Source: Alphaproteobacteria bacterium MarineAlpha9_Bin3 (GTDB lineage: Bacteria > Pseudomonadota > Alphaproteobacteria > TMED109). Taken from it: a DNA stretch of 51,519 nucleotides. The stretch lies in contig PTKH01000007.1 in the NCBI GenBank assembly GCA_002937655.1, forward strand, positions 1 to 51,519, read 5' to 3'. This document shows, one piece after another, positions 1-46,627 of this stretch. The position numbers and the translations under genes are program-made. The notes under the pieces were generated by a model. It saw only the letters and a program-made list of their open reading frames with translations. It was not told the DNA's origin and did no database searches. The stretch's first letter is position 1. Every line of letters begins with the position of its first letter.

Positions 1-77
1 CATGATGACCATGCTGACCATGACGATCATGCAAAGCACGAAGATCATGATGACCATGCTGACCATGACGATCATGC
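1..77 (+). repeat. 45-bp-period tandem repeat coding for the His/Asp stretch
   Basis: An exact 32-base match lies at 1-32 and again at 46-77, a spacing of 45 bases or 15 codons. The repeat is in frame and codes H-x-x triplets rich in Asp and Ala. It is likely to have grown by duplication and may extend further left, outside the window. Confidence 0.75.
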
Positions 78-831
78 GGATCATGATGATCATTCAGGAC
101 ATAATCATGAAGACCTAGGTTTTAAAGTATCAGGTATTCTTGAGCCCACGGGAACTCCAATTGATAACGCTGTTTACATAAGTTTAGCTGGTGCAGAAGC
201 TATGCATACAGGATGGATTGGAAATCAAAAAGTAATGGATGTCTCTATAGAGCAGATACTAGAAAGTGAATTAAAACCTAAGACTATTTCGGCCATATTT
301 ATATCTTTAAAAAATAGAACGCAAATTTTTCAGTTTCAGAGAGATGTCTTGAATTATAAAAAGGAGGCTATAAGTTCTGTTATGCCAGGATTAACATTAT
401 CAAGACTTTGGGTTTTAACCGGTAATGTTGATAAAGCTTTTAAATTTATTACATTCTTAATAATTATTATAGCTCTTTTAGGTATGATAGCCATGACTAT
501 TGCGGGCCTAAATAGTAGAAGAAGAGAAATGGCAATTTTGAGATCTGTTGGCGCTTCTCCAAATAACATAGTCAGCTTATTATTAGTAGAATCGATTATA
601 ATATCCTTGGTGTCTTGTATTTTAGGATATATCATTATGATTGTAATATTTACTTTAGGAAAAGATTATGTCCAAAGTAATTATGGTATATTTATTGATG
701 GTTTCTCTATCAAAAACTATGATTTACAAATAATTATTGCAATAGTATGTGCTGCTCTAGTAGCAACTATTGTTCCCGCGATACAGATATATAAAAATAC
801 ACTTAGAGATGGTTTGTCCGTTAAATCATAA
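1..831 (+). CDS. FtsX-type ABC transporter permease, 3' part, His/Asp-rich loop
   Basis: The reading frame is open from the first base, so the gene starts outside the window. The visible 276 residues begin with a soluble His/Asp-rich stretch (codons 1-38, His at every third position up to codon 34), continue into a periplasmic-type domain (GILEPTGTPIDNAVYISLAG), and end in three membrane segments with the FtsX/MacB signature SRRREMAILRSVGASP. Permeases of this family with a His-rich loop next to a DUF3299 gene are known from proteobacterial clusters linked to zinc (compare the Vibrio Zrg system); that comparison is from memory. The cognate ATPase is presumably encoded just upstream, outside the window. 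Role inferred: zinc or metallo-protein handling in the envelope. Family call firm, substrate uncertain. Confidence 0.8.
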   Translation, partial: HDDHADHDDHAKHEDHDDHADHDDHADHDDHSGHNHEDLGFKVSGILEPTGTPIDNAVYISLAGAEAMHTGWIGNQKVMDVSIEQILESELKPKTISAIFISLKNRTQIFQFQRDVLNYKKEAISSVMPGLTLSRLWVLTGNVDKAFKFITFLIIIIALLGMIAMTIAGLNSRRREMAILRSVGASPNNIVSLLLVESIIISLVSCILGYIIMIVIFTLGKDYVQSNYGIFIDGFSIKNYDLQIIIAIVCAALVATIVPAIQIYKNTLRDGLSVKS

Positions 832-2320: not shown

Positions 2321-3229
2321 ATGCTTAAAAAAATAATAACTTTAATAATTATACAATTCTCTTTTCCAAGCACATTAATAGCAAAAGAATTAAATGTATT
2401 TGCTTGTGAGCCAGAATGGAAGTCCCTAGTAGAAGAAATAGGTGGTGAAAAAGTAAAAGCTATTTCTGCTACTCATGCTAAACAAGATCCGCATTATATA
2501 CGTGCTAGACCAAGTTTAATTTCAAAAATTAGACGAGCTGATTTAATTTTTTGCAGTGGTGCTGGCTTAGAAGTTGGTTGGATGCCAATACTAATACAAA
2601 AGGCCAAGGCAGAAGTGCAACCTGGTAGTATAGGTTATCTAATGGCATCAAAATATACTCCCATCATAGACATTCCAAAATCAATTGACCGTGGACATGG
2701 CGACATTCATCCTGAAGGTAATCCCCATGTGCATCTAGATCCTAATAATATTCCTATTATAGCAAAAGAATTATATAGAAGGTTAGTTATTATAGATCCT
2801 ATAAATAAATCTTATTATAACTCACGATATAATAATTTCATTTCTAGATGGGATAAATCTCTTCTAGAATGGGAAAAAGAAATACAAGATATTAAGGGTA
2901 AAAATATAGTTATTCATCACAAATCTTTTGATTATATGTTTTATTGGATGGGACTAAATGAAGTAGCTGCCTTAGAAATTAAACCAGGTATTCCTCCAAC
3001 AGCAGCGCACCTTAATGATATTTTACAAACTGTAAATAAAGATACAGTAGATTTAATAGTTGTATCTCCATATGATCCACCAAAAGGTGCAACCTGGCTG
3101 TCAAATAAAACTAAAATACCTTTTGTTATTTTGCCTTATACAATAGGAGGAAATGAAGAAAGTAATAATTTATTTGCACTATTTGATAGTTCAATTAAAA
3201 TTTTACAAGATGCATTATATTACAAGTAA
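2321..3229 (+). CDS. znuA: Zinc/metal ABC transporter substrate-binding protein (ZnuA-like)
   Basis: This 302-residue protein belongs to the cluster A-I metal-binding family (ZnuA/TroA/PsaA). It has a signal peptide (residues 1-21, LIA-KE). Candidate metal ligands are His58 in QDPHYIRARPS, His136/138 in NPHVHLDP, and His199/200 in VIHHKSFDYMF. The PRS/PS loop after the first His and the PGIPPTAAHL segment are also typical of the family. The long acidic His-rich loop of E. coli ZnuA is missing; only a short HGDIHPEGNPHVH stretch (residues 126-138) is present. It should deliver Zn(II), or less likely Mn(II), to the overlapping znuB-like permease. A predicted Zur palindrome lies 29 bases upstream. 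Confidence 0.88.
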   Translation: MLKKIITLIIIQFSFPSTLIAKELNVFACEPEWKSLVEEIGGEKVKAISATHAKQDPHYIRARPSLISKIRRADLIFCSGAGLEVGWMPILIQKAKAEVQPGSIGYLMASKYTPIIDIPKSIDRGHGDIHPEGNPHVHLDPNNIPIIAKELYRRLVIIDPINKSYYNSRYNNFISRWDKSLLEWEKEIQDIKGKNIVIHHKSFDYMFYWMGLNEVAALEIKPGIPPTAAHLNDILQTVNKDTVDLIVVSPYDPPKGATWLSNKTKIPFVILPYTIGGNEESNNLFALFDSSIKILQDALYYK

Positions 3230-3974
3230 CGATTTTATAACAATAATTGGGCCAGCTTTATTAGCTGGCTTAATTATAACAATTACTCATGCTCCATTAG
3301 GAATAGAGGTATTAAGGCGTGGCATTATATTTATTGATTTGGCAGTAGCTCAAATTGCTGGATTAGGTTTGTTAATATCAAACTTATACTTTAATAATGA
3401 TAAAGCTTGGTTACCTCAAATAATTGCTTTAATTTTTGCATTAATAGCAGCTTATTTCTTTAAGATAGTTGAAAATAAAATTAAGTCACAACAAGAGGCT
3501 ATTATTGGTGTTAGTTTCATATTAGCAGCTTCATTATCTATTTTATTATTAGCTGATCATCCAACCGGTGGAGAAGAAATTCGACATTTACTCTCTGGGC
3601 AAATACTATTTGTTACATGGCAAGATGTGTTAATGCATGTACCAATTTATATAATTATATTAATACTTTGGTTTTTACCTATAAATTTAAATGGTATTGG
3701 CTTTTATATTCTTTTTTCCTTAGCCATAACATCTTCTGTTCAACTAGTAGGTGTTTATGTTGTATTCGCAAGCTTAATTTTACCAGCTTTAACAGCACTT
3801 AAGAGCAAAAATCCATGCAAGATTGCATGGATAAGTGGTTTATTTTCAGTAATAATTGGAATATTATTATCTATAATTATAGACTTACCTGCAGGACCAA
3901 TTCTGGTTGTAAGTTATGTAATTGTTACTATTTTAATATTATTTTTAGAGAAAATTAATATAATTAATATTTAA
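3210..3974 (+). CDS. znuB: Zinc/metal ABC transporter permease (ZnuB-like, ABC-3 family)
   Basis: An integral membrane protein of about 254 residues with seven to eight hydrophobic segments; HAPLGIEVLRRGIIFIDLAV, AQIAGLGLL and VGVYVVFASLILPAL are typical of the ABC-3 metal permease family. I chose the ATG at 3210 (residues MHYITSND) because the longer reading from 3153 would overlap znuA by 77 bases and adds a stretch unlike the family's N terminus; the chosen start still overlaps the znuA stop by 20 bases, suggesting translational coupling. It would carry the metal from ZnuA across the inner membrane. No ZnuC-type ATPase gene is present in the visible cluster, so the energising subunit must be elsewhere. 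Confidence 0.85.
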   Translation: MHYITSNDFITIIGPALLAGLIITITHAPLGIEVLRRGIIFIDLAVAQIAGLGLLISNLYFNNDKAWLPQIIALIFALIAAYFFKIVENKIKSQQEAIIGVSFILAASLSILLLADHPTGGEEIRHLLSGQILFVTWQDVLMHVPIYIIILILWFLPINLNGIGFYILFSLAITSSVQLVGVYVVFASLILPALTALKSKNPCKIAWISGLFSVIIGILLSIIIDLPAGPILVVSYVIVTILILFLEKINIINI

Positions 3975-3989
3975 TAATTGGAGTTTAGA

Positions 3990-4550
3990 ATGAAGTTTTT
4001 AGTTTTTATTTTTAATATTTTTATATGTCATTTATTATTTAGTGCATCATTATATGCAAATAATACTATAGAAATTACTAATGAAAACGAAGTTTTACCC
4101 ATTACATGGACAGACTTATTACCTATGGATGCATTCGATTTCGTGCCTGATGGTGGAGTAACAGATGAGATGTGGAGCGATCCTAATTTTCTTTTGGCAG
4201 TTGAAAAGGCGGGTTTAGCAACAGTAAGTGAATTAGATGGAGTTAATATAAGACTCACTGGCTTCATGGTTCCTTTAGATGTTGATTTTGGTGAAGCTGA
4301 AACTGTCACAGAGTTTGTCTTAGTGCCTTCAGCGGGAATGTGTATGCATGTTCCTCCACCGCCACCTAATCAGATGTTAATGGTAAGATTTAAAGAGCCT
4401 GTTAGAATAAGGCATATGTATCAACCTATAGGGATTAATGGAGTAGTTAGAATAGATGAACCTAATGATGAAGCATTTGGAAGTATTTATAATGTTACAG
4501 GTGAAGTAGTTGAAGACGTTACTTATAAAGATCTTGATTTAGGAAGATAA
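3990..4550 (+). CDS. DUF3299 family exported protein
   Basis: About 186 residues with a signal peptide (cleavage near LYA-NN). The core matches DUF3299: ITWTDLLP, LTGFMVPLDVDFG, TEFVLVPSAGMCMHVPPPPP and NQMLMV. The Cys-Met-His-Val-Pro segment is the most conserved part of the family and could bind a metal or cofactor, but the function is unknown. An upstream TTG at 3978 is in frame, but the ATG at 3990 has GGAG (3980-3983) at good spacing and begins a normal signal peptide. DUF3299 genes commonly accompany FtsX-type permeases of the kind at the start of this window, so the protein likely works with that transporter. It begins 15 bases after znuB, so it is likely co-transcribed. Confidence 0.82.
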   Translation: MKFLVFIFNIFICHLLFSASLYANNTIEITNENEVLPITWTDLLPMDAFDFVPDGGVTDEMWSDPNFLLAVEKAGLATVSELDGVNIRLTGFMVPLDVDFGEAETVTEFVLVPSAGMCMHVPPPPPNQMLMVRFKEPVRIRHMYQPIGINGVVRIDEPNDEAFGSIYNVTGEVVEDVTYKDLDLGR

Positions 4551-39606: not shown

Positions 39607-41010
39607 ATGAATATTGCACAAATAAAAGTTTGGTTAATATTACTATTATCAACTTTTATACTATTAATTGGTATAGTTTTTTCAATATTTTTGAGTTCTT
39701 ACTATTTAAGTCCACTAGGCCAAAATTATGCTAAAAAAGAATTAAATAAAGTAAATAAAATTGTAGAAAATGATTATTCAATCTTGAAAGAGGTTTTTAA
39801 AGATTTTACAATTTCAAATGAAGAAAAAATAGTAATAGATAATTTGAATATTGTAAAAAATAATTCTGGTAATATAAAATTTATTATCCAAGAAAGAGAT
39901 AGAAAAGTACTTTATAATAAAGGCATAATTAATAATTTTACTGATAAACCTAGTAATAATTTAATATCGATAGGTAAATTCAGCATTGATTTTGCAGCGT
40001 TTTTTAAAAAAGTTTTTTTTTATAAAGTAAAAAATGATTGTAACGATTATTTTCGTAACCCGTATACAGTATTTCAAGATAAAATTGAAGTTTATGAAAT
40101 ACAATGTTCTTTTAATTTAAATAAAAGTATGATGAGAATATATAAAGGTGGAGACCTTAATAGTTCATATATTATTGCTAAAAGTATACCTATATATATA
40201 GATAATAAAGTAGGTGTAGTTATTTATCTTTCATCAGATGCTAGGAATTTAGAGGAGGATTTAGGGATTATTCTTTTATCAATATTAACACCAGTTATAT
40301 TTAGTATTTTTTTAGTCTCTTTCTTTATAATATATTTACAAAGATATTTGAGATTAAAAATTAATAGTAATTGGATTAATGCAAAAAATATTGCTCATAA
40401 TTTAAAGAATAAGACTAATGCTATAAAATTTTATAATTCTAAAAATTTTGATAATATTAAAATGTATAGAAATAATTCTATAAAAATTAACAATATAATT
40501 TCTAATTTAGATGATTTTATAGAGACATCATTAAACACGGCTCGGAATGATCATTATGAAACTGGAGATCACGATAAAAAAGATTTCACTGATTTTTTTA
40601 CAATAATTGATTTATTACAAAATTTATATCCTTCTAAGAATATTGATCTTAATCTAAATATTGATAGAAAAAAGAAATATGTGATTAAAGGAGAAAAAAA
40701 TAAAATAATTGAAGCAATTTCTGCCTCTATAGATAATAGCCTATATTGGAATATATCAGATAACAAAATAATAATAAGTGTAAATATCAATAATAATTTT
40801 TTAGAGCTTATAGTAAGAGACCGTGGACCAGGTATTAGTAATAAAGATAAAAAAAATATTTTTTTAAAGGAATATAGTAAATCAGGTGGTAATGGAATTG
40901 GCTTGTATCTTGCAAAAAATATTGTAGTTTCATATGGTGGCAACCTTTATCCTTTAGACAGAAAAGGTGGAGGACTAGATATGGTATATAAATTTAAACT
41001 TATAAATTAA
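39607..41010 (+). CDS. Membrane sensor histidine kinase
   Basis: A 467-residue sensor kinase. TM1 (about 8-32) and TM2 (about 219-244) bracket a periplasmic sensor of about 185 residues with two cysteines (NDCNDYF and IQCSFN), which may form a disulfide. No HAMP domain is evident. His264 in IAHNLKNKTNAI is the likely phospho-acceptor, without the usual following Pro; the ATPase domain has the N box DNSLYWN, the G1 box RDRGPGIS and the G2 box GGNGIGLYLAKNI. It precedes the three-gene RND efflux set by 33 bases, so it probably controls it through the regulator at 37827. Confidence 0.88.
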   Translation: MNIAQIKVWLILLLSTFILLIGIVFSIFLSSYYLSPLGQNYAKKELNKVNKIVENDYSILKEVFKDFTISNEEKIVIDNLNIVKNNSGNIKFIIQERDRKVLYNKGIINNFTDKPSNNLISIGKFSIDFAAFFKKVFFYKVKNDCNDYFRNPYTVFQDKIEVYEIQCSFNLNKSMMRIYKGGDLNSSYIIAKSIPIYIDNKVGVVIYLSSDARNLEEDLGIILLSILTPVIFSIFLVSFFIIYLQRYLRLKINSNWINAKNIAHNLKNKTNAIKFYNSKNFDNIKMYRNNSIKINNIISNLDDFIETSLNTARNDHYETGDHDKKDFTDFFTIIDLLQNLYPSKNIDLNLNIDRKKKYVIKGEKNKIIEAISASIDNSLYWNISDNKIIISVNINNNFLELIVRDRGPGISNKDKKNIFLKEYSKSGGNGIGLYLAKNIVVSYGGNLYPLDRKGGGLDMVYKFKLIN

Positions 41011-41043
41011 ATATTTATATATAACTTAGATAAGATATGACTA

Positions 41044-42486
41044 ATGATTAAATTAAAAAGAAATATTATTTTATTTTCAATATCAGTTTTTCTATTAATA
41101 AGCTGTACTTCTTCTCAATATATTGAGCCTAAGCAACTTGACGCTGAAACTTCAGCTAAATCAATCCTTTCTAATAATATTAATGATCAAAAATTAATAG
41201 CTTATTTAAGTAGGTATAATTTAATTATTCCAGATAAAGATGATTATTGGAATTCTGACTTATTAGTAATGATTGCTTTGTTTAATAATAAAAATTTAGA
41301 AATGAAGAGGGCTGAGTATGGTTTAGTGGCAGCTGATATACAAGTAATAACTGCTGGTTTTAAAAATAATATTTTAAATCCTACAACGGAATATCATACT
41401 AAGGGTAAACCATTTACCATTGGTTTGAGCTTAGAAGTTCCTACAAACAATATTTCCATTAAAAAAATTAAGCTAGATTTAATAAAAATTAAGACTTTAA
41501 CTAAGGCGTTAGAAATAATTTTACCAGCATGGGAAATTCGTACTAATGTTATGAAGTCTATTGCAAAAATATTAAAATATGAAGAAGAGTACATTTTAGA
41601 AAACAATATAACTAATAAAATGGACAAAAATTTGAACATAATGAATGGGTTGTATGAGCAGGGATTAATTTCTTCAATTTTATTAAATAATTATAAGAAA
41701 GAGTTAGAAGAAAGAATTAGTAATTTAAAGATTATTAAATCTAAAATTAAAGCCTCTAGAATAAATCTATCTAGTAATTTAAACTTACCAATAGATTTAA
41801 TAATGAGTATGAAAATTGCATTAGAAGATAGTAAAACTGCAACAATAGAAGAGTTAGAATCTACATTAGAGGAAAAATTAAATTTTGCCTTGGTCAGCAG
41901 AGGAGATGTTTTGACTTCTTTATCTAAATATGCTGAGTCTGAGTCTGAGTTAAGATTATTAGTTGCAGAAGAAAATAATATAATACAATCTTTATCACCA
42001 GCGATCCTTTGGGATCAAACTGATCTAATATTTAATTTAACTGGTGCTTTATTATTGAAAAATGAAGAAATTACGGATGCTAAAATGAATAAGGCAATTT
42101 TAAAAAGAGATTTATATAAAGCAAGCTTTGAAGCAACTCAAAGTATGATACTTCAAGAAGTATATAATTCATTTTCTAAAATGTTGATTGTAAATGCTGA
42201 GTATTATGCGGGTTTATCTTTGCTGCAGAATTCTAAATTAAATTTAGAAATAATAATAAATAGAAGGAAAAAAGGCGATGTAAGTAATCTTGATGTTTTA
42301 CAAGCAGAGTTATTAACTTTACAAAGAGAAAAATTATTATCTGATATTAAATATAATAGGTTATTTTCTTTTTTAGATTTTGAAAACAGTCTGGGTCATA
42401 GCTACAATAATAAAGATTATCTTCCTAAAGATGCTTATTATCCTATAGATTATTTTACAAATTCATATAAAGGTAATTCTCAATGA
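41044..42486 (+). CDS. RND-type outer-membrane efflux lipoprotein (TolC family)
   Basis: A 480-residue outer-membrane factor. The lipobox LLIS-C puts the lipidated Cys at residue 21. The body is long helices typical of TolC/CusC (for example MNGLYEQGLISSILLNNYKK and LNLEIIINRRKKGDVSNLDVLQAE in part). It should form the trimeric outer-membrane exit duct. The next gene, the adaptor, overlaps its stop by 4 bases (ATGA). Together with the adaptor and the inner-membrane pump it makes a complete tripartite efflux system. Confidence 0.85.
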   Translation: MIKLKRNIILFSISVFLLISCTSSQYIEPKQLDAETSAKSILSNNINDQKLIAYLSRYNLIIPDKDDYWNSDLLVMIALFNNKNLEMKRAEYGLVAADIQVITAGFKNNILNPTTEYHTKGKPFTIGLSLEVPTNNISIKKIKLDLIKIKTLTKALEIILPAWEIRTNVMKSIAKILKYEEEYILENNITNKMDKNLNIMNGLYEQGLISSILLNNYKKELEERISNLKIIKSKIKASRINLSSNLNLPIDLIMSMKIALEDSKTATIEELESTLEEKLNFALVSRGDVLTSLSKYAESESELRLLVAEENNIIQSLSPAILWDQTDLIFNLTGALLLKNEEITDAKMNKAILKRDLYKASFEATQSMILQEVYNSFSKMLIVNAEYYAGLSLLQNSKLNLEIIINRRKKGDVSNLDVLQAELLTLQREKLLSDIKYNRLFSFLDFENSLGHSYNNKDYLPKDAYYPIDYFTNSYKGNSQ

Positions 42487-43541
42487 AAAAAATAATATAT
42501 GTATTGATAGGAGTTTTAATTGGTTTGCTAGTTTCTTTGCTATTATTCCAACCAAGGCTTGATTATTTTTTGGATGATGAGAGTGAATTAATAGATAACG
42601 AGATGAAGATTTATGACGATGATGACGATGATGACGATGATGATTATGAAATTAATAGAGTAGAGTACTATAAAGATAAATTAGCTATAAAATTATCTGA
42701 TGATGAAATTAAGGATGCTGGAATTATTGTTTATAAATTAACACAAGATAAAATTACATTAGAAGAAGAAATAAACGCTATATCTATAGGTTATAAAAAC
42801 TTATTAGATGTAGTTAGTAAATACGACGTTTTGAATGTACAGCTTAGTAAGAGCAAAATTAACAAAACACATAATGAAAGAATATATTTGAGATTGAAAT
42901 CTCTTTATGATGAGCAGGGTAGTATTGCTCTTAAAGATTTGGAGGAAATAGAGTTTAAAATTGAGTCAATTAAAGCTGATATGAATTCAATACAAAAAGA
43001 TATGGATTTTCTTATTAGTGAAATAAAATTAGAATACGGCAGTATATTAGTGGATGATGTTCTTAGTGAAAGAAAGATTTTTACTTCTTTAATAAATAAT
43101 TCTTCTTCTTTATTAATCATAGAAAATGTTAATTTAACTAATAAAAATAGAAATTATAAATTTAATAATGAAGAATTAATTTTTCTTAACCCTTATAATG
43201 GGAATTCAAATTTAAGAGGTAATGTAGGTATATTTTTATTACAAAATATAAAAATTTCATCAAATAGCAAGCTAACTGTTTTCCTGGAAAATGAAGACTT
43301 GATTGACGGTTATTTTATTCCAGAAAGTGCTTTACTCTATCACGGTGGAAAAGTATGGGCATATTTTAGAGAAAATAATGAAATTTTTTATAAGGAGGAG
43401 ATAACTAATTTTTATAATATAGATAATAATAAAGTTTTTAGTACTAACTCCTTATTAAATTTGAATATTGTAGTATCTGGAGCTCAAATATTATTAGCTG
43501 AGGAATTTCGCTCGCAAATTATGCAAGAAGATGATGATTAG
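42483..43541 (+). CDS. RND efflux periplasmic adaptor (membrane fusion protein)
   Basis: A 352-residue adaptor: N-terminal membrane anchor (residues 4-22), an acidic linker with a run of ten aspartates (45-54), a helical hairpin (about 105-180), and a C-terminal beta region with DGYFIPESALLYHGGKVWAYF typical of adaptor barrels. The usual paired lipoyl half-motifs are weak, so it is a divergent member. The chain ends in QEDDD, again acidic. It is translationally coupled to the outer-membrane factor and followed 8 bases later by the pump gene. The acidic linker could bind cations. Confidence 0.78.
   Translation: MKKIIYVLIGVLIGLLVSLLLFQPRLDYFLDDESELIDNEMKIYDDDDDDDDDDYEINRVEYYKDKLAIKLSDDEIKDAGIIVYKLTQDKITLEEEINAISIGYKNLLDVVSKYDVLNVQLSKSKINKTHNERIYLRLKSLYDEQGSIALKDLEEIEFKIESIKADMNSIQKDMDFLISEIKLEYGSILVDDVLSERKIFTSLINNSSSLLIIENVNLTNKNRNYKFNNEELIFLNPYNGNSNLRGNVGIFLLQNIKISSNSKLTVFLENEDLIDGYFIPESALLYHGGKVWAYFRENNEIFYKEEITNFYNIDNNKVFSTNSLLNLNIVVSGAQILLAEEFRSQIMQEDDD
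42615..42644 (+). repeat. 9-base repeat coding ten aspartates
   Basis: Three copies of GACGATGAT plus one GAT, in frame, code for the ten-Asp run of the adaptor protein. Such short repeats can change copy number by slippage; the period keeps the frame. Confidence 0.75.
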
Positions 43542-43549
43542 AATTTATA

Positions 43550-46500
43550 ATGTTTTATTCAATAATTAGATTATCCATATATAAACCTTTAATAACCATT
43601 TCCTTTGTTTTATTAATTTCTTTTTTTTGTTCTTGGAAATTATTTCAAACGTCTTTAGATATTTTTCCTGAGTTTTCGCCTAAATTAGTTGTTATTCAAA
43701 CTGAATCTCAAGGTCTATCAGCTGAACAGGTTGAGAATAACGTAACAAGACCGCTTGAGTCCTATTTGGCAGCTATACCTAATATGGATTATTTGAGATC
43801 TGAATCTATTGCAGGTCTATCTGTAATAACCTTAACTTTTAAAGAAAATTCAGATCATAATATTAATAGACAACTAGTATTGGAAAAACTTAATGGTGTT
43901 AAAAATATACTCCCATCTAATGCAAATACCCCTTTAATGATGCCTTTAGCTTCTTCAGCTGCTACAATTATGACTATCGGTTTTACTTCTGAAGAAAAAA
44001 ATTTATTAGATTTAAGAACTTTTGTGGATCAACATATTTCACCCGCTTTATTATCTTTAAATGGTGTAGCTGATGTAAATGTCTTTGGGGGTTACGAGAG
44101 GCAATTAAGTATAATATTAGATAAAGATAAACTTTTGAAATATTTTATTAGCCTTGAAAGTATTATTGATCATATCAAAGCATCTAACTTAATTGTATCT
44201 GGTTCAATTCAAACACCTAATCAGGAATTACAAATTGTCTCAAACAATGTAATCCCTATTGAGAAAATTAGAGAAATAAATCTCTTAAATGATAATGGCC
44301 AATATTTTAAGTTAAAGGATATAGCAACTATAAAATTTACTGCTGTAAAACAAATTAGTAAAGCTAGTATTGAAGCTACAGATGGTATTGTTTTAATGAT
44401 CATTGGACAGTTAAATGCTGACACTGTTGCTATAACAAAATCTATAGATCAATCTTTAAGTAAACTTAAAGCTTTAATTAGAAGTAATAAAATTGAATTG
44501 CATGATCAAATTTTTAGGCCTGCTAATTATATTTTAAAAAGCTTAGAAAGTATTTTAGATCATTTAGTTCTAGGTGGATGTTTAGTATTAATTGTACTTA
44601 TCATTTTTATGTTTAATCTTAAAGCTGCATTAATTTCAGCTTTATCAATACCTATTTCACTTCTATTAGCATCTATTTTAACATTAAGTACTGGTACAAG
44701 TTTAAATATAATGGTTATAGCTGGCTTAGCTATAGCACTAGGAGAAGTTGTTGACGATGCTATTATAGATGTTGAAAATATACTTAGACGATTAAGAGAA
44801 AATGCGAAGTTAAAAAACCCACTAAATACTCTAAGAGTTATCTATAAAGCGTCACTAGAAGTTAGAGGTTCTGTTATTTATGCCTCATTAATAGTAATGC
44901 TAGTATTTGTGCCTTTACTTTTATTATCTGGATTAGTTGGTAGAATGTTTGCTCCATTAGGTATAGCTTATATACTAGCAATTTTTTCATCCTTAATTTC
45001 TGCACTGACATTGACACCAGCTCTATCAAGCATAAGTTTTAGAAAATATACAGAAACAAAAGAGCCGTTTGTAATAAATTTAATATCCCCTCTTTATAAG
45101 AAAATATTATCTTATATTACATCATTCCCTAAGTTATATTCTATTATTACACTCTTACTATGTTTTTCAGGAATCATTTTAGCACCTAAATTGAATTTTG
45201 GTTTTTTACCAGACTTAAGGGAAGGGCATTTTATGATTCATACATCTTCGATTACAGGCACTTCCTTATCTGAAACAATGAGAATTGGAGATAATATTAG
45301 CAGTAAAGTTTTGCAGATAGAAGGTGTTAAAACTATATCACAGTGGGCGGGAAGGGCAGAAAGAGGAGCAGATACATTTGGAAGCCATTATTCAGAATTT
45401 GAGGTTGAATTATATGATTTGACTGGAGAAAAAGAGCAGATAGTACATGATAAGATTAGAGAGGTATTAATTAATACACCTGGAATATCTTTTGAACTAA
45501 ACTCTTTTTTAGTTGAAAGAGTAGATGAAACTTCTTCAGGTTTTACTTCACCGATTGTAATTCAAATTTTTGGTAATAGTTTAGTTAATATAGATATTGC
45601 TAGTAATAAACTACATCAAGGTTTATTAGAAAGTAATTTGCTGAGAGATGTTCAATTAAAGTCTGTACTTGATAAACCACAAATTAATATTGAATTTAAC
45701 AATAAATTATTAGCTAAAAATAATATTTCACTTAATCAGGCTAAATTATTTATTAATACTGCGATAGATGGATTTATAATTGATAACTATTATGAAGATG
45801 TTTTACTTATACCTGTAGTTCTTTTGTATAAAGATGAAAATCATATAGAAAGTATTGATTATATAAAAAACTTGGTTTTGTTTAATAAGCTTGGTCAGCC
45901 AATAAAACTAAAAGATATTTCTGAAATATCTATAACGAAAGGACGCTATAATATTCTTCATGATTCTGGAAGAAAAGTGCAAATTATAACTTTAAAACCA
46001 TTAGGGGGAGCTATCAATTCAGCATTAAATGAAATTAATAATATTATAAATAATATTAATTTAGGAGATAATATTTATATTAATATAACTGGAAGTGCGA
46101 TAGAAGGAAATGAAGCTCGAAAAGAACTAATAATTATCTCATTTTTAATTATGATAGCAGTATTATTTCTTGTCCTATTAGCTATAGGAAATATGAGAAA
46201 TACTTTACTAGTTTTAATAAATTTACCTTTTGCCTTAATTGGAGGTTTAATTGCAGCTTCAATTGGAGGCGGTATATTATCTATAGGATCAGTTGTTGGA
46301 TTTATAACCTTATTTGGTATAACTTTAAGAAACTCCATTATGTTAATTTCTCATTATCAGCATTTAGTATTTAAAGTTGGTTTAAAATGGAACAAGGATA
46401 CTGTAATAAAAGGAGCAACAGAAAGGTTGCCGTCTATATTAATGACAGGATTAGTTACAGCACTTGCAATGGTTCCTATTGCTTTTGATTCGGATAATGC

Positions 46501-46627
46501 TGGCAGAGAAATTATGGGTCCAATGGCATCTATAATTATAGGAGGCTTGACTTCTTCTACTATTTTAAACTTACTTATTTTGCCAGCTTTTATGTTAGCT
46601 TTCGGATCTTTTAATAGAAAATCATAA
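43550..46627 (+). CDS. RND efflux pump, heavy-metal (CusA/CzcA-like) type
   Basis: A 1025-residue inner-membrane pump with twelve membrane segments and two large periplasmic loops. The N terminus (SIYKPLITISFVLLISFF, then DIFPEFSPKLVVIQTES) and GLSAEQVENNVTRPLE match the HME subgroup. TM4 carries ALGEVVDDAIIDVENILRR, with two acidic residues for proton relay, which differs from the CusA and CzcA wording and belongs to a less-studied HME branch. WAGRAERGADTFGSHYSEFE is also typical of that branch. The exported substrate cannot be named; monovalent or divalent metal ions are likely. It ends a kinase-OMF-adaptor-pump run. Confidence 0.88.
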   Translation: MFYSIIRLSIYKPLITISFVLLISFFCSWKLFQTSLDIFPEFSPKLVVIQTESQGLSAEQVENNVTRPLESYLAAIPNMDYLRSESIAGLSVITLTFKENSDHNINRQLVLEKLNGVKNILPSNANTPLMMPLASSAATIMTIGFTSEEKNLLDLRTFVDQHISPALLSLNGVADVNVFGGYERQLSIILDKDKLLKYFISLESIIDHIKASNLIVSGSIQTPNQELQIVSNNVIPIEKIREINLLNDNGQYFKLKDIATIKFTAVKQISKASIEATDGIVLMIIGQLNADTVAITKSIDQSLSKLKALIRSNKIELHDQIFRPANYILKSLESILDHLVLGGCLVLIVLIIFMFNLKAALISALSIPISLLLASILTLSTGTSLNIMVIAGLAIALGEVVDDAIIDVENILRRLRENAKLKNPLNTLRVIYKASLEVRGSVIYASLIVMLVFVPLLLLSGLVGRMFAPLGIAYILAIFSSLISALTLTPALSSISFRKYTETKEPFVINLISPLYKKILSYITSFPKLYSIITLLLCFSGIILAPKLNFGFLPDLREGHFMIHTSSITGTSLSETMRIGDNISSKVLQIEGVKTISQWAGRAERGADTFGSHYSEFEVELYDLTGEKEQIVHDKIREVLINTPGISFELNSFLVERVDETSSGFTSPIVIQIFGNSLVNIDIASNKLHQGLLESNLLRDVQLKSVLDKPQINIEFNNKLLAKNNISLNQAKLFINTAIDGFIIDNYYEDVLLIPVVLLYKDENHIESIDYIKNLVLFNKLGQPIKLKDISEISITKGRYNILHDSGRKVQIITLKPLGGAINSALNEINNIINNINLGDNIYINITGSAIEGNEARKELIIISFLIMIAVLFLVLLAIGNMRNTLLVLINLPFALIGGLIAASIGGGILSIGSVVGFITLFGITLRNSIMLISHYQHLVFKVGLKWNKDTVIKGATERLPSILMTGLVTALAMVPIAFDSDNAGREIMGPMASIIIGGLTSSTILNLLILPAFMLAFGSFNRKS

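Follow-up and report, generated by a model that had tools for sequence, protein, structure and literature searches.

A candidate zinc-binding histidine strap in the periplasmic loop of a ZrgB-type permease encoded without ZrgA

The window, by which we mean the whole stretch of 51,519 nucleotides that was analyzed, opens inside an FtsX-type permease gene that encodes histidine at every third residue, and the question raised by this locus is what such an array does in a permease of a zinc cluster. For ZrgBC-type systems, the receipt of zinc and the direction of transport are disputed, with uptake argued in Vibrio and metallophore export in Pseudomonas. Zur control, the zinc role of ZrgA and this dispute are treated in the accessible parts of PMC9817125, PMC9820375, PMC8561739, PMC11481552 and PMC11761036. 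We consider it somewhat probable that the feature is a His-rich strap, likely to bind zinc, within the periplasmic loop of a ZrgB-type permease, which would form part of a Zur-linked Zrg transporter that has lost ZrgA.

The genome measures 1.62 Mb and is 96.4% complete; the window is its contig C67, with a GC content of 29%. The array occupies positions 1-108 of the plus strand as 12 H-x-x units and ends in HNH. Histidine is found at codons 1, 4, 7 and so on to 34, 12 in register, with one further His at codon 36, and the 36-residue stretch contains 13 His and 14 Asp. The original prediction had described this array without a miss over codons 1-34 together with a 45-base repeat; its counts were reproduced, and bases 46-90 match bases 1-45 at 89%. 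Chance composition was rejected as the source of the array, because with this composition a register made up entirely of His, in any of the three, has a probability of 3e-8. The array was also rejected as the start of a gene, because base 1 of the window is a contig end within the permease gene and not the place where the feature begins; the open frame at 1-831 has an open 5' end.

Retrieval of the upstream sequence, which had been called for in the original prediction, was successful, and contig C33 supplied the ATPase and the 5' part of the permease. The 3' end of C33 (12,162 bases) overlaps the window start by 77 exact bases, a 32-base overlap also being possible, and window positions 1-600 used as a query against the genome matched only C67 and C33. 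The 5' portion of the array is located on C33 (L003:12050-12162), where the 45-base unit recurs in 2.4 tandem copies that match at 100%, and C33 contributes HTDHDDHAKHED ahead of the overlap. Because C33 carries this 5' part, the array of C33 and the window together comprises at least 16 H-x-x units with at least 17 His. In the relative G006 the corresponding genes are contiguous on one strand, and this gene order therefore supports the order C33-C67. In three of the seven genomes of the clade (G000, G003 and G007) the sequence is broken within the array.

The order of the cluster is zur-like gene, ATPase, permease, porin-like gene, znuA, znuB and DUF3299. C33 bears, in this order, a Zur-like Fur protein, a LolD-like ATPase (L003:10816-11502) and the 5' part of the permease (L003:11495-12162), the ATPase and permease being separate ORFs. 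The 3' part of this FtsX/MacB-type, ZrgB-like permease (1-831, plus strand) matched PF02687 with 54.6 bits (cut-off 25.5), which bears out the earlier assignment to the FtsX type, and it is 93% identical to the intact permease of G006 over the C-terminal 237 amino acids. It is followed, all on the plus strand, by a putative porin-like outer-membrane protein of 422 amino acids (954-2222), which has homologues in relatives and no Pfam or NCBIfam match, a ZnuA-type zinc-binding protein (2321-3229; PF01297, 146.6 bits), a ZnuB-type permease (3153-3974, start codon unsure; PF00950, 78.5 bits) and a DUF3299 protein related to ZrgE/PA4066 (3978-4550, start codon unsure; PF11736, 96.5 bits). The DUF3299 protein matched PDB 4hsp (E 9e-20), given as the structure of PA4066 in the available part of PMC8561739.

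The ATPase, permease and DUF3299 genes thus share one cluster. The same seven genes are contiguous in G006, and in G001 and G005 the block from the porin-like gene to DUF3299 lies on the opposite strand. No znuC was found beside znuA and znuB (2321-3974), the only ATPase gene of the cluster being the LolD-like one on C33, and of the 33 places in the genome with an ABC ATPase, the 8 that were scanned gave no match to a ZnuC model at 1e-40. Among the best 80 of 578 matches, the nearest named relative was Candidatus Pelagibacterales MAG SAT136. Several small observations were made around the operon. In G010 and G013 a homologue of the porin-like gene is oriented divergently from zur. Divergent from zur on C33 is a small Cys-containing ORF resembling a membrane protein (L003:9720-10136), which has no Pfam or NCBIfam match. 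Small membrane-protein-like ORFs that look alike by eye are also located beside the operon in G011 (L216:6057-6428, with no Pfam match and a few His near the C-terminus) and G007 (L217:7931-8218).

Four exact palindromes precede genes of this cluster, namely zur (C33:10220), the ATPase gene (C33:10753), the porin-like gene (TGCGATAATATTGCA, 889-903, no strand assigned) and znuA (TGCAATAATATTGCA, 2265-2279, no strand assigned). The pattern TGCRATADTATYGCA has only these four exact matches in the whole 1.62 Mb genome, all in the zinc cluster, and the sole additional site with one mismatch lies within a frame read as sucC-like. We infer that the palindrome is a Zur operator, the Zur-like protein itself scoring 73 bits against PRK11639, below the cut-off of 167. 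Relatives were scanned for the box with up to 3 mismatches. In G006 it was found ahead of zur, the ATPase, the porin-like gene and znuA; in G001, G005, G010 and G013 it was found ahead of zur or the porin-like gene, and it precedes znuA in G006, G001 and G003 (1 mismatch). With the same tolerance the box was missing ahead of the ATPase in G001, G005 and G011 and ahead of znuA in G005, and the stretches tried of G007 and G012 did not show it.

On sequence comparison, the permease is a member of the Zur-controlled ZrgB/PA4065 family, of FtsX/MacB type. The tree placed it in the ZrgB clade, apart from a second class of more distant pairs. The intact G006 permease showed 36-40% identity to nine rows from outside the clade, and conserved blocks including LGDSH could be aligned. 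In a scan of named genomes, the best 80 of 578 matches included permeases of Vibrio, Photobacterium, Pseudomonas, Aeromonas, Hyphomicrobium and others at 34-39% identity. The original reading of a zinc-linked permease was supported by the cluster with ZnuA/ZnuB, DUF3299 and the Zur-box-like sites, but its view that such a permease is little explored was not, as this family has already been studied in Vibrio and Pseudomonas according to the portions available of that literature.

The fold was assessed on the AlphaFold model of a homologue without the strap, ZrgB of Pseudomonas alcaligenes (L097; mean pLDDT 89). Its long helices can be read as four TM helices, with a domain at about 57-279 predicted between the first two. 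Confidence is lower at residues 171-190 (block means 64 and 77), which correspond to the place where the array is inserted in the window's clade (site 1), and at 221-230 (block mean 76), which falls in a second loop (site 2); the loops of both sites are thus low-confidence stretches within an otherwise well predicted periplasmic domain. The nearest folds to this model were 5xu1 (VIA Z 24.3), LolE (21.4), HrtB (19.1) and MacB (18.4), so that, judged from the homologue, the permease fold would be shared with the MacB, LolCDE, HrtBA and 5xu1-type systems; this structure comparison is one that rules out no family. In MacB exporters ATPase and permease form one chain, whereas here they are separate genes. 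A LolCDE-type lipoprotein exporter was rejected by the NCBIfam scores, which were far below cut-off for LolD (154.6 of 307.75) and LolCE (19.9 of 362.45). A closer LolD candidate is encoded elsewhere in the genome (246 bits, likewise below cut-off).

Comparison with the ZrgABCDE system of Vibrio cholerae and V. parahaemolyticus indicated that the ATPase, a 4-TM permease with a MacB-like periplasmic domain, DUF3299 and a probable link to Zur are common to both. The present system differs in that ZrgA was not found, the permease has a His-rich insertion, and znuA and znuB sit between the permease and DUF3299. With regard to PA4063-PA4066, the G006 permease is 36% identical to one from a P. aeruginosa plasmid operon annotated DUF2796-ATPase-permease-DUF3299. 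Site 1 of the P. alcaligenes permease has only 13 residues and one His, and in P. aeruginosa His-rich loops are borne by PA4063, as stated in the accessible text of PMC8561739. ZnuA and other zinc-binding proteins also have a flexible, His-rich loop next to a domain for zinc binding or transport (PMC9820375, seen in part), but in those cases the loop is on a solute-binding protein and here it is on the permease.

ZrgA (PF10986), which in the standard system is a zinc-binding protein of its own, had no match in the window's own genome, and it was not found in G001, G003, G005, G006, G007 and G011 (59-88% complete), all of which have the insertion in the permease. The identical search does detect ZrgA in 18 of 97 relatives. 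In G006, G001 and G005 zur, ATPase and permease are consecutive without zrgA, and in G011 ATPase and permease are adjacent, with a divergent gene preceding the ATPase. The relatives in which ZrgA adjoins the permease, such as G010, G012 and G013, have short loops. Homologues next to DUF3299 without a His-rich loop had been named in the original prediction as the observation that would speak against it. Most homologues examined are of this kind, by which the idea that all DUF3299-linked permeases carry the loop was rejected, but these homologues have ZrgA.

The relation of loop and ZrgA was counted over class-1 (ZrgB) loci, a loop being called His-rich with at least 3 His at site 1 or at least 4 at site 2, cut-offs that were set after the loops had been seen. 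In the 116 class-1 loci with ZrgA, site 1 has 11-14 residues with 1-2 His and site 2 has 20-38 residues with 1-3 His. A further 26 ZrgA-plus loci, for which ZrgA was assigned by genome, lie within those ranges, with at most 1 His at site 1 and at most 3 at site 2. Thus, a His-rich loop was detected in 0/142 ZrgA-plus class-1 loci (0/116 and 0/26), against 17 of the 18 ZrgA-less class-1 rows, where it is located at site 1 or site 2; the named and unnamed collections were counted without mutual de-duplication. Of these 17, the loop measure identified 14, and the window, G003 and G419, which are cut by a contig end or frame break, were judged separately. The sole exception was G636. The window's clade uses site 1, which has 28-70 residues in four intact relatives, and the remaining ZrgA-less His-rich loci use site 2. 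The longest site-2 loops are those of G547 (L314:5556-7139), with 140 residues and 45 His, and G616 (L315:4900-6480), with 136 residues and 35 His; enrichment is only mild in G151, G247 and G715 (4, 5 and 4 His at site 2).

Nine contig-cut class-1 loci were left out of these counts (L125, L145, L148, L149, L150, L159, L181, L191 and L247). They are cut upstream, have no ZrgA in view and are not His-rich, the largest His count within any 40 residues (H40) being 2-4. In L181 (G150) a ZrgA fragment with a stop lies about 750 bases from the permease.

The rows came in part from two draws of genomes. The class draw gave 29 other genomes with a strong class-1 permease, of which 26 have ZrgA by reading of the tables; the others are G151, G247 and G339, of which G339 is truncated at its contig end. 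An earlier count at H40 of at least 7, taken over both classes, had given 0/96 ZrgA-plus loci (largest value 6) and 17/29 ZrgA-less loci. The phylum draw of 398 genomes was made after the idea had been formed. Besides the window's own, 72 of its genomes have a strong class-1 permease, and nine of these are without ZrgA by reading of the tables (loci L308-L316). Their H40 values were 12, 3, 8, 5, 9, 7, 19, 17 and 6, so that 6/9 reach the cut-off of 7, counted beforehand, and 8/9 are His-rich by the later loop measure. Of the 63 ZrgA-plus genomes in this draw, 46 were read, with H40 at most 5 in all 46, and a further five (G049, G133, G209, G277 and G355) were already in the class draw. DUF3299 was not seen in the fetched stretch of six of the nine new ZrgA-less loci (G636, G657, G715, G668, G419 and G648), compared with 1/20 ZrgA-plus loci. 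The system in these six may therefore have changed its job, and parts besides ZrgA would also have been lost, which argues against a plain replacement.

Phylogenetic analysis with a quick tree, in which only every fourth named ZrgA-plus locus was kept, indicated 8 changes of the ZrgA label, of which 5 or more fall on well supported branches. The His trait at cut-off 7 never moved in the same direction as ZrgA, and at cut-off 5 it did so in 13 of 200 pairings. Strict tests of independent pairs were non-significant (2 pairs, median p 1; 5 pairs, median p 0.25 and 0.5), and with only five supported pairs such a test cannot reach significance. A nearest-neighbour comparison of nine lineages gave 8 up, 1 tie and 0 down (p 0.008), a value that is optimistic because partners were chosen greedily, lineages were drawn by eye, three H40 values were set by hand and two lineages, those of the window and G247, are neighbours on the tree. 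These H40 values (window 13, L212 14, L217 13) were taken from full open frames because the trimmed rows cut the array.

The more distant ATPase-permease pairs (class 2) comprised 37 loci, with a DUF3299 match in the stretch of 29 of them and a Zur- or Fur-type gene in some; four (L240, L241, L242 and L250) lie outside the class-2 clade on the tree. ZrgA was present in 0/37 loci, and 21/37 have at least 4 His at site 2, with a maximum of 22. The class-2 sequences support the trend, though low-His loci occur. Some of the latter are located by a ZnuA-type gene (L229, L231 and L325), and for others, such as L317, L318 and L321, no ZnuA-type gene was recognised alongside. Genomes G012, G015, G018 and G021 have both arrangements: their class-1 permease has short loops and ZrgA beside it, and their class-2 permease is His-rich, its locus lacking ZrgA; the two systems of G012 are L243 and L219.

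These distributions suggest to us that the strap may be a built-in stand-in for ZrgA. Under zinc starvation, Zur would release the operon, and the strap would loosely bind several Zn2+ in the periplasm. It could then hand the zinc to the MacB-type domain of the permease or gate that domain, the role that soluble ZrgA would have elsewhere, and ATP-driven movement of the permease would transport either zinc itself or a ligand that carries zinc or cobalt; for the family, the direction is disputed. ZrgA likewise has zinc-binding His-rich loops (available parts of PMC8561739 and PMC9820375). What weighs most against this is that V. cholerae ZrgA does not need its His-rich loop to function in vivo (PMC9820375, consulted in part), and a strap by itself may therefore be insufficient to replace ZrgA. 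What is essential in ZrgA may be its folded body and not the loop, and for a fold a strap is no replacement. As a tentative generalization, which we hold to be possible but short of probable, zinc ABC transporters of the MacB fold may exist in two exchangeable designs, a bare permease with ZrgA or a His-strap permease without it. The designs would have been switched repeatedly via two loops, the window's clade being the only one seen to use the first loop, by expansion of a 9-base H-x-x unit.

The transporter family is known already, the internal His strap is apparently new, and its exchange with ZrgA is apparently recurrent. In the open-access literature no paper was found on a His-rich loop in a ZrgB-type permease, nor on a swap of ZrgA and strap, and the passages available of PMC4176598, PMC12183173 and PMC5387054 contain nothing on this permease. 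If true, the exchange would place the action of the metal-binding partner at the periplasmic domain of ZrgB, and permeases with a built-in strap offer a place to test it. It would also represent a compact zinc-starvation system for marine α-Proteobacteria with small genomes.

Another explanation, which we think unlikely, is that the strap is a zinc sensor or brake: with plenty of zinc in the periplasm it would fold against the permease and halt transport, and under starvation it would empty. The low confidence of the predicted loops is what flexible loops would give, and a sensor role with micromolar affinity has been proposed for the ZrgA homologue PA4063 (PMC8561739, in the part accessible). 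However, a supply role accounts at least equally well for the recurrence of His-rich loops in loci that lack ZrgA, and the Zur-box-like sites would probably keep the operon silent at ample zinc, so that a second brake would be less needed.

It also seems unlikely that the transporter is a MacB-like exporter, for a metallophore or some other ligand, whose strap would remove metal from the ligand or retain it at the exit site. For PA4065, deletion data on pyochelin and cobalt have been used to argue that a pyochelin-cobalt complex is exported (PMC11481552, available in part), and MacB, LolE and HrtB are among the nearest folds. Against this, ZrgA is required for the zinc-limited growth of V. cholerae lacking ZnuA (accessible sections of PMC9820375), and no adaptor family was detected among the 10 cluster proteins scanned.

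We find it very improbable that the array has no function and is a minisatellite expansion that a disordered loop tolerates: the 45-base exact tandem copies, the differences in array length between relatives and a loop that tolerates insertions would agree with it, but differently sequenced His-rich loops arise at two sites, solely in loci without ZrgA, and in several species the three-residue spacing of His is kept, by CAT as well as CAC codons, as the residues between vary. The codon counts were taken on runs chosen as perfect, are therefore suggestive only and cannot show purifying selection. The built-in stand-in for ZrgA is our preferred reading of the strap. Elsewhere in the window, at 39607-46627, consecutive ORFs resemble, from their translations alone, a sensor kinase, a TolC-type protein, an adaptor and a large RND pump, and the adaptor-like ORF at 42483 contains a run of ten Asp.
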